Positions 9,352 through 64,000 of a stretch of 64,000 nt of DNA are shown in pieces. Position 1 is the stretch's first letter, and each line of letters starts with the position of its first letter. The position numbers were made by a program, and so were the translations under genes. The DNA comes from Candidatus Aminicenantota bacterium (lineage in GTDB: Bacteria; Acidobacteriota; Aminicenantia; Aminicenantales; Saccharicenantaceae), in contig JACIYJ010000001.1 in assembly GCA_014360015.1 (NCBI GenBank), forward strand, positions 310,001-374,000. Direction: 5' to 3'. Below the pieces are notes generated by a model that saw nothing but the letters and a program-made list of their open reading frames with translations, searched no databases and was not told where the DNA came from.

Positions 9352-9626
<275 letters not shown>

Positions 9627-61363: not shown

Positions 61364-61393
61364 TTGACCATCTATAAGGAATTTTAGTATATT
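61364..61393 (+). promoter_or_regulatory. promoter of the tungstate/molybdate operon
   Basis: TTGACC (61364-61369) is followed by 18 bases and TATATT (61388-61393), giving a start near 61400, just before the riboswitch. Confidence 0.55.
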
Positions 61394-61420
61394 TAATCCT
61401 GATTTTAGCTCTTTGATAAA

Positions 61421-61520
61421 GTGACTCCGAGCCGGCACGCCTGAAGCCTGGAAGGTATGGCGGCTGGCCGACAGGGTATGGCTGGAAACGGCCACTGCCT
61501 CCCGTTAAGGAAAGGAGTGA
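61421..61520 (+). ncRNA. Moco/Tuco-type riboswitch aptamer
   Basis: The conserved segments of the molybdenum/tungsten-cofactor RNA are present in order: ACTCCGAGCCGG (61424-61435), GGCCGACAGGGTATGG (about 61466-61481), CTGGAAACGGCCACTGCCTCCC (61482-61503), then AAAGGAGTGA. A closing stem pairs ACTCC (61424-61428) with GGAGT (61514-61518). It sits between a promoter and a terminator, upstream of tupA. The downstream cargo suggests the tungsten form (Tuco), but the variant cannot be told by eye. Confidence 0.85.
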
Positions 61521-61534
61521 AGAATGAGATTTGT

Positions 61535-61570
61535 GGGCATGCTTTCCTGACGGAAGGCATGCCCTTTTTA
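61535..61570 (+). terminator. riboswitch expression-platform terminator
   Basis: The 13-pair stem 61535-61547 (GGGCATGCTTTCC) with 61552-61564 (GGAAGGCATGCCC), one T-G wobble, has a TGAC loop and is followed by TTTTTATT. The 5' arm CATGCTTTCC (61538-61547) can instead pair with GGAAGGTATG (61450-61459) inside the aptamer over ten consecutive bases. That alternative would be an antiterminator. Confidence 0.88.
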
Positions 61571-61720
61571 TTATAGGTAAAGATTGACGCGGGCCAAAAG
61601 GATAGATAGGCAGATATAAAAAGAGTTGAAGAAAAAAAGAAGAAAGAAGAAGGAAAGCTGGTGGTAATCAGAATAATTAAAAGAGAAAGCGAAAAGAATG
61701 CCTCAGAATTGGAGAGGAAA

Positions 61721-62674
61721 ATGAGCCTGTTAAAAAAGAAGACCATTGCCGCAAAAACCAAAAGTGATGCCCAAAAAGACAGCGGAAGCAGGAAAAGGAA
61801 AATTTATTACGTTTTTCTAATTCTTATTATTTTTCTGATTGTCTGGAAAGCTGCGGACAGGAAGAGTTCCATAGATAAGGTTGGCCAGAAAGTTGCTGAA
61901 CCAACTGGCAAAATATCGGGCGATATTTCAAGAGACATTATTGTTGCCACCACTACCAGCCTTTATGACAGCGGCCTGCTTAACATGATAATACCGGCTT
62001 TTGAGAAAGACTCTGGCTATAAAGTAAAAGTCATTGCTGTTGGCACAGGAGAAGCCCTGGAAATGGGCAGACGTCAGGCGGCTGACCTGCTTTTAGTCCA
62101 TGCTCCGGAGTTGGAAAAGAAATTCATGGAGGCTGGCTTTGGCCAACGCCGGGAAGAAATTATGACCAGTGAGTTTGTCATTGTCGGCCCGGTTTCTGAC
62201 CCAGCTCGGATTAGAGGTAAATCTTTTTCTGAAGCTTTCTCAGTCATTGCCCGCCTCCAGATGTCTTTTATCAGCCGGGGAGATAACTCCGGGACTCATT
62301 TTTTAGAGAAAAAAATCTGGACTGAGGCTGGAATTAACCCTTCGGGTAAATGGTACTTTCAGGTGGGTCAGGGAATGGCTGAAAGTCTGAGAATAGCTTC
62401 TGACAAACAAGCCTATATCTTAAGTGATTATCCGACCTTTCATCAGCTCAGGTCAAAGCTCCAACTTGAAGTCCTTACCCAGGACCCTGCTTATAAAAAC
62501 ATTTATTCGGCTATTATAGTCAAAAACAGGGATGGCCAAGTTAATGTAGCTGGGGCCAGAGCGCTGGCTGATTTTTTAGTTTCAGAAAAGGCTCAGAAGC
62601 TGATTTATGAATTTGGTGCCCAACCGGGTAAAGATTTAAGACTTTTTCATCCTCTGAGAATAGGTTTAAAATAG
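61721..62674 (+). CDS. tupA: tungstate ABC transporter substrate-binding protein
   Basis: This protein of about 318 residues has the TupA oxyanion loop ATTTSLYDSGLL, LLVHAPELEKKFMEAG, SRGDNSGTHFLEKKIW and YILSDYPTF. Ahead of it are about 27 basic residues and one membrane helix (IYYVFLILIIFLIVW) with no lipobox or clear signal peptidase site, so it may stay membrane-anchored. GGAGAGG at 61711-61717 supports ATG 61721; a GTG at 61661 is also possible. It is the first gene after the cofactor riboswitch. Confidence 0.9.
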   Translation: MSLLKKKTIAAKTKSDAQKDSGSRKRKIYYVFLILIIFLIVWKAADRKSSIDKVGQKVAEPTGKISGDISRDIIVATTTSLYDSGLLNMIIPAFEKDSGYKVKVIAVGTGEALEMGRRQAADLLLVHAPELEKKFMEAGFGQRREEIMTSEFVIVGPVSDPARIRGKSFSEAFSVIARLQMSFISRGDNSGTHFLEKKIWTEAGINPSGKWYFQVGQGMAESLRIASDKQAYILSDYPTFHQLRSKLQLEVLTQDPAYKNIYSAIIVKNRDGQVNVAGARALADFLVSEKAQKLIYEFGAQPGKDLRLFHPLRIGLK

Positions 62675-62683
62675 GTAGTTTTG

Positions 62684-63355
62684 ATGACCGGTTCAGAAAT
62701 TCTTCAAATTACCCTGCTCAGTCTGTTGGTTTCCGGTTTGGCCGCGCTGCTTGCCTTTCTGACAGGCCTGCCCACAGCAGTTTTTCTTTACCTCAAGGAT
62801 TTCCCCGGGAAAAGGTTGGTGATATCTCTGGTTAATACCGGAATGGGACTGCCGCCGGTAGTGGTAGGCCTTTTTGTGGCTATTCTTTTCTGGCGAACTG
62901 GGCCACTCGGTTTTCTCCATCTGATGTACACTCCGGCGGCCATGATCATCGCTCAGTTCATCATCGCCTTTCCGGTAATTGCTGGCCTGTCCCTGGCTGC
63001 TTTCGAGCAGGTTGATCCAGAGTTGCTGCTTCAGGCTAAGGCCCTCGGGGCTTCAAAAATTCAGACGATTTGGGTTCTTTTTCGTGAATCAAAAATGGGA
63101 CAAATAGCGGCCATCATTGCTGCCTTTGGCGGGGTAATTTCTGAAGTCGGGGCGGTGATGATGGTTGGTGGAAACATCAAAGGTTATACCAGAGTGCTGA
63201 CCACTTCCATTGTTCAGGAAACCAGAATGGGCAATTTCCGTTCAGCCCTTATCCTGGCTCTCATTCTGTTGAGCCTGAGTTTTGCGGTCAACTGGTTTTT
63301 AACTTCTCTTCAGCAAAAAGGAGAAAAAAGGTGGAAAGGCCCGAACTGGAAATAA
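62684..63355 (+). CDS. tupB: tungstate ABC transporter permease
   Basis: This protein of about 223 residues has about five helices. It contains NTGMGLPPVVVGLFVAILFW and the EAA loop LLQAKALGASKIQTIWVLFR, both typical of TupB/ModB-like permeases. It lies ten bases after tupA, and its 3' end overlaps tupC. Confidence 0.93.
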   Translation: MTGSEILQITLLSLLVSGLAALLAFLTGLPTAVFLYLKDFPGKRLVISLVNTGMGLPPVVVGLFVAILFWRTGPLGFLHLMYTPAAMIIAQFIIAFPVIAGLSLAAFEQVDPELLLQAKALGASKIQTIWVLFRESKMGQIAAIIAAFGGVISEVGAVMMVGGNIKGYTRVLTTSIVQETRMGNFRSALILALILLSLSFAVNWFLTSLQQKGEKRWKGPNWK

Positions 63356-64000
63356 GGGAACTGAAGCTCTGGCGAGACGGAAGAAAAATTCTGGACGTTT
63401 CTCGACTCGAACTTGGAAAAAATGAATGCTTAGTTCTCTTCGGGCCGAACGGAGCCGGGAAAAGTACTCTCCTAAGGGTGGCCTCTCTTCTGGAACAGGC
63501 TGATTCCGGCGAAATATATTATCAGGGAATAAAGGTCGATAAGAAAAACAGGCTGGAGTTGAGCCGCAAGGCGGCCTATCTTCTGCAGAAACCCGTCTTT
63601 TTCCGGGGAACAGTCAAAGACAACCTGCTGATGGGATTAAAATTCCGGGGGCTGAATGAGGCTGAACAGCGGAAAAGATTAAATAAAGTAGTGGAACTTT
63701 TCAACCTGAATTCATTTCTGAATCGCCAGCCAGGAGAGCTATCCGGTGGTGAAAAGCAGCGAGTCCATTTAGCCCGGGCTTTTATCCTTGAGCCAGAATT
63801 CCTTTTTTTAGATGAGCCGTTTAATGGCCTTGATGCCGAGTTGAGAGAACGGCTTATCAGTGACTTTTTTGACATCAGAAAAAAAACTGGCCAAACAACC
63901 ATCCTGGTAACTCATCACCGCGATGAAGCGGCCTTTATGGCTGACAGAATTGCGGTGATGGTAGCTGGCGAGATTATTCAGACCGGAAAAGTGGAAGAGG
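63331..64000 (+). CDS. tupC: tungstate ABC transporter ATPase (3' truncated by window edge)
   Basis: The GTG at 63331 is preceded by GGAG and lies 25 bases inside the end of tupB. The frame runs open to the window end (223 codons). Walker A GPNGAGKST, signature ELSGGEKQR, Walker B FLFLDEPFNGLD and H-loop VTHHRDEA are all canonical. It completes the TupABC set. Confidence 0.92.
   Translation, partial: MERPELEIRELKLWRDGRKILDVSRLELGKNECLVLFGPNGAGKSTLLRVASLLEQADSGEIYYQGIKVDKKNRLELSRKAAYLLQKPVFFRGTVKDNLLMGLKFRGLNEAEQRKRLNKVVELFNLNSFLNRQPGELSGGEKQRVHLARAFILEPEFLFLDEPFNGLDAELRERLISDFFDIRKKTGQTTILVTHHRDEAAFMADRIAVMVAGEIIQTGKVEE

Follow-up and report, generated by a model that had tools for sequence, protein, structure and literature searches.

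A P3-less Moco-family riboswitch with a covarying antiterminator, probably acting as a transcriptional OFF-switch of a tup-moe-moa operon in Aminicenantia

Overview

The leader of a tup-moe-moa operon in an Aminicenantia genome contains a Moco-family riboswitch of the P3-less subgroup, for which a tungsten cofactor (Tuco) has been proposed as ligand. It is very probably an OFF-switch that controls the operon by transcription termination, with an antiterminator formed between positions 61496-61514 and 61542-61559 of the window, the whole 64,000-nucleotide stretch of DNA that was analyzed. The leader most likely feeds back on the genes for tungstate import and turns them off when the tungsten cofactor suffices. 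This provides a testable, base-level model of the ON and OFF states for a riboswitch class with little-characterized expression platforms, and the same design was seen in tup leaders from other phyla.

Identity and anatomy of the leader

A cmscan of the window gave a match to RF01055 at 61413-61533 on the forward strand, with a score of 57.4 bits (E 3.9e-11) against a gathering cut-off of 36 bits. The initial annotation, whose letters and coordinates were correct, had recognized a Moco/Tuco-like aptamer here and recommended a covariation search for the Moco family, and this covariance-model match bears it out. Alignment to the family consensus and to relatives showed that the RF01055 core elements CTCCGAGCC, AGGG, GGAAAC, CCTCCC and GGAAAGGAG are present, while the model positions of the P3 stem are deleted, as in the Tuco subgroup. 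The features of the leader are as follows.

61364..61393 (+), putative promoter-like pair TTGACC-18-TATATT (consensus scan, 10/12 matches)
61413..61533 (+), Moco/Tuco riboswitch aptamer without the P3 stem (cmscan, RF01055)
61424..61428 (+), 5' strand of the P1 stem, ACTCC (Rfam consensus structure)
61450..61459 (+), apical loop and 3' strand of P2, proposed earlier as partner of the terminator arm and rejected as the switch here
61496..61514 (+), 5' strand of the antiterminator, TGCCT-C-CCGTTA-A-GGAAAG, comprising the aptamer 3' core and the top of P1 (nascent folding, covariation, cognate/swapped test)
61514..61518 (+), 3' strand of the P1 stem, GGAGT, its first base common to the antiterminator (Rfam consensus structure)
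61535..61564 (+), intrinsic terminator hairpin of 13 pairs with loop TGAC (conserved in 14 leaders)
61542..61559 (+), 3' strand of the antiterminator, CTTTCC-TGACGG-A-AGGCA, comprising the terminator 5' arm, loop and part of the 3' arm (same tests as the 5' strand)
61565..61569 (+), U-run of the terminator, TTTTT (sequence)

The terminator-type platform proposed from the letters was supported, as the 13-bp hairpin with its U5 tract (61535-61569) lies downstream of the aptamer in the window, and the same arrangement was found in 14 leaders of the class. Terminator-type members of the Moco class have already been reported (Regulski et al. 2008, PMC2408646).

Downstream genes and the probable ligand

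Three genes of a tungstate transporter are found directly downstream of the leader.

61661..62674 (+), tupA, tungstate-binding protein (PF12849, E 1.9e-34); the start codon is uncertain and may be further in
62681..63355 (+), tupB, ABC permease (PF00528; NF038017 over cut-off)
63331..64000 (+), tupC, ABC ATPase with TOBE domain (PF00005, PF03459); it exceeds the window and is complete in L222

The tupA product matches the tungstate-binding protein of PDB entry 3lr1 (E 1e-49) as well as the TupA profile NF041772 (E 2.8e-54, under the equivalog cut-off), and the tupB product matches the TupB profile NF041773 (E 2.2e-38, also under the cut-off). The gene order 3' of the leader is tupA-tupB-tupC-moeA-moaA-moaC, with mobB, a ThiF-family gene and an aldehyde:ferredoxin oxidoreductase (AOR) farther downstream. 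The 2.72-Mb assembly contains three AOR-family genes, so that tupABC and AOR together provide the tungsten-gene association of the Tuco subgroup. P3-less RNAs have been linked to tungsten users (Regulski et al. 2008, PMC2408646). We infer the metal to be tungsten rather than regard it as settled, because two molybdopterin-oxidoreductase-family genes are also present in the genome. The feedback by the cofactor on tungstate import that had been suggested from the letters was supported.

An antiterminator built from the aptamer 3' end

Folding of successive transcript lengths revealed a helix between 61496-61514 and 61542-61559 with 17 pairs, one mismatch and one bulge, which excludes both the aptamer and the terminator. 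The first half of this helix is able to form while the terminator 3' arm is still untranscribed, and nascent RNAs ending at 61550-61560 fold as this antiterminator. The initial annotation had suggested folding both states as a check, and the result depended on transcript length: the antiterminator was better than the P1 state by ~7 kcal/mol at a transcript end of 61553 and by ~4 kcal/mol at 61559, and from 61565 onward the terminator state was ahead by ~5.7 kcal/mol. The competitor of the terminator is the aptamer 3' end, not the P2 site proposed earlier. As the terminator is more stable at equilibrium, readthrough without ligand would have to be kinetic, which is common in transcriptional riboswitches.

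On these grounds the switch would work as follows. With cofactor bound, the folded aptamer would hold 61496-61514 within its own core and P1, and the downstream RNA would fold into the terminator at 61535-61564, leaving the tup-moe-moa operon off. With no cofactor, 61496-61514 would pair with 61542-61559, and this antiterminator would capture the terminator 5' arm and loop before the 3' arm is complete, allowing transcription to continue. The direction is expected to be OFF because the antiterminator strand is the aptamer core itself, and stabilization of the aptamer favors the terminator. The anatomy of the aptamer 3' core therefore supports the OFF logic already proposed, in which a folded aptamer leads to the terminator and an unfolded one to an antiterminator.

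Conservation within the class Aminicenantia

RF01055 was searched in relatives and across the class, and the hits were collected. A clear terminator was present in 14 leaders (eleven in the genus of the window, two in g8 and one in g3), and the downstream gene was tupA-like in all of these except L054, whose downstream gene was beyond the search. The 61496-61514-type helix forms in 14/14 terminator leaders, with duplex energies of -23 to -32 kcal/mol. Across the 13 distinct rows of the covariation alignment (A2), 95.9% of the antiterminator cells were paired, and this fraction fell to 33-55% when the partner was slid by one to three columns. Three two-sided changes were observed, a number reached by 0/500 shuffles; as GGAAAG, the conserved half, is held constant by the aptamer, the covariation is limited to few positions and few lineages.

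A terminator needs no particular tetraloop. Six were seen among these leaders (TGAC, TGGT, GGGT, TGGG, TGAG and AAGC), and the antiterminator pairing was kept in all six. When all 256 possible loops were ranked by pairing with the cognate aptamer, each of the six fell in the top 0.4-5.5% (Fisher's combined p = 1.6e-6, which is optimistic as the sequences are related). The loop change in L041 and L054 is tolerated, with the antiterminator bulge shifted by one base. A mutation of the loop only would separate the antiterminator from the terminator. Comparison of cognate with non-cognate pairing has little power within the class, because the terminators are nearly identical.

Coupling of aptamer and terminator beyond the class

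Further leaders were obtained by scanning genome contigs with the TupA profile, followed by Rfam scans, which added 17 leaders of the terminator type, most of them from Bacillota, at tup loci or close to them. All combinations of aptamer 3' ends and terminators were then compared. Cognate pairs fitted better than swapped ones among 22 leaders from several phyla (permutation p = 2e-5), and the advantage was the same in the 17 leaders outside the class (p = 2e-5). No such cognate coupling was detected for the P2 region in either set (p = 0.11 and 0.33, respectively). A clear antiterminator of the window's kind was not found in L159 and L166; the design is common in tup leaders, not universal.

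Tandem Moco RNAs were also observed upstream of tupA at L175:1792-2086 and L170:2019-2337. L175, from Syntrophomonas, has a cassette of aptamer plus terminator in two near-identical copies, along with a third that looks degenerate.

Alternative mechanisms

The initial annotation had named a different switch helix, between GGAAGGTATG at 61450-61459 and CATGCTTTCC at 61538-61547, with which the switch would act through the P2 hairpin. The pairing itself is real: it consists of ten continuous pairs, two of them wobble, with -11.9 kcal/mol as a duplex, and a nine-pair version exists in L041 and in relatives with GAAGGTATG. A contiguous helix of at least ten pairs with the terminator 5' arm is also reached by 4% of dinucleotide-shuffled aptamers (P ~0.04 before any correction for choice by eye), and the ten pairs are for this reason weak evidence alone. 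In the window, isolated P2 segments equal the 3' segment in their score against the whole terminator, so duplex energy alone was dropped as a discriminator and replaced by context energy and covariation. In context the helix requires P2 to open: for all transcript ends tested between 61545 and 61569, the ensemble with the helix enforced was 9-19 kcal/mol less favorable than the unconstrained one. Its role as the switch is likewise at odds with the comparison of homologues that the annotation had itself proposed, naming loss of the complement in related leaders as evidence against it. Positions 61450-61453, in the P2 apical loop, are variable or partly deleted in 13 relatives with a near-constant terminator arm; variation or disruption affects eight of the ten pairs, and most relatives sharing this leader lack an intact complement. 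Among these 13, the helix had no two-sided changes and a paired fraction equal to that of the shuffled control. Given its cost in context, its lack of conservation and its result in the cognate/swapped test, this helix was rejected as the switch, for which it is a very improbable candidate, and the antiterminator at 61496-61514:61542-61559 is favored.

Also unlikely, albeit slightly less so than a switch through P2, are ON control and recognition of a different ligand, such as Moco itself. The class evidence in PMC2408646 is genetic and not direct binding, and the two molybdopterin-oxidoreductase-family genes would suit such a ligand. An ON-switch, however, would require the ligand to favor a helix built from aptamer core bases, the opposite of what the anatomy suggests, and the tup transporter, the AOR genes and the absence of P3 form a tungsten context. 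We consider it still less probable that control is translational, with GGAG of the P1 3' strand as Shine-Dalgarno sequence for an ATG at 61524 and the terminator incidental or constitutive. Most sister Moco RNAs in the class are laid out with GGAG followed by ATG, the start codon lying 5-7 nt after AAAGGAG. The frame opened at 61524, however, stops within the terminator loop after just 8 codons; in relatives the position is occupied by CTG, TTG or GTG, or a stop follows early, and tupA starts ~100 nt further on. The terminator and its loop are moreover conserved in the aligned relatives, and the linker is variable. A leader ORF at 61524 with translational control was rejected as neither start codon nor frame is conserved. 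We regard the GGAG and ATG (61514-61550) as most likely a relic of a translational layout, which suggests that the terminator platform of the favored OFF-switch evolved from a start-codon layout. Both platforms exist in the genome of the window, where the remaining two Moco RNAs directly adjoin start codons, and organisms with both types have already been reported (PMC2408646).

TonB-dependent receptors and other observations

The two other Moco RNAs of the genome of the window, L001:1501-1619 and L003:1501-1622, were located at the start codons of TonB-dependent receptors. Proteins with a TonB plug domain formed the largest group downstream of Moco RNAs in the class, with 54 of 121 proteins; the rest comprised TupA- and WtpA-type binding proteins, MoeA, a few PF01497 binding proteins and one AOR. 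A motif count gave 54 TonB-linked loci in 52 genomes and 23 genera, and four more cases were found outside the class. In the literature searched, no paper was found to connect the Moco riboswitch with TonB receptors. Judged from their riboswitches, the receptors are probably tungsten or molybdenum uptake proteins, although co-regulation alone cannot establish a substrate. We tentatively propose, at somewhat below an even chance, that the tungsten-cofactor regulon spans both membranes, combining a terminator-type switch for the inner-membrane tungstate importer with TonB-dependent outer-membrane receptors whose Moco RNAs are adjacent to start codons. If true, tungstate or a metallophore that binds tungsten would be taken up by TonB-driven transport in Aminicenantia and certain related bacteria.

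Moco RNAs were additionally observed upstream of aldehyde-dehydrogenase-like genes in L236, L237, L240, L065 and possibly L244. PF00171 was confirmed for L236, L237 and L240 were near identical, and L065 was under the family cut-off; the products may stand in for aldehyde:ferredoxin oxidoreductase, without need of tungsten, when the cofactor is in short supply. Longer Moco RNAs, which probably have P3, precede iron-siderophore/B12-type periplasmic binding proteins in L040, L053, L055, L062, L063 and L064. PF01497 was confirmed for L040 and L055, with four PF01497 members among the downstream proteins scanned, and these proteins possibly represent an uptake route for a molybdenum or tungsten metallophore. 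The window also contains a bacterial large-type signal recognition particle RNA at 9356-9622 (RF01854, 161.1 bits).

Comparison with known riboswitches

In transcriptional OFF riboswitches of the TPP, SAM-I and lysine types, the aptamer 3' end or P1 forms the antiterminator. The leader described here shares with them the principle that aptamer plus terminator excludes antiterminator, and differs in its aptamer class and in that its antiterminator extends across the terminator loop into the 3' arm.

The leader has the same aptamer sequence and structure, including the absence of P3, as the P3-less Moco/Tuco RNAs described previously (PMC2408646), and both lie upstream of genes for tungstate transport and cofactor synthesis. 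Aminicenantia are not among the organism groups named in the abstract of that paper. Compared with the members reported there, its antiterminator is resolved base by base with covariation.
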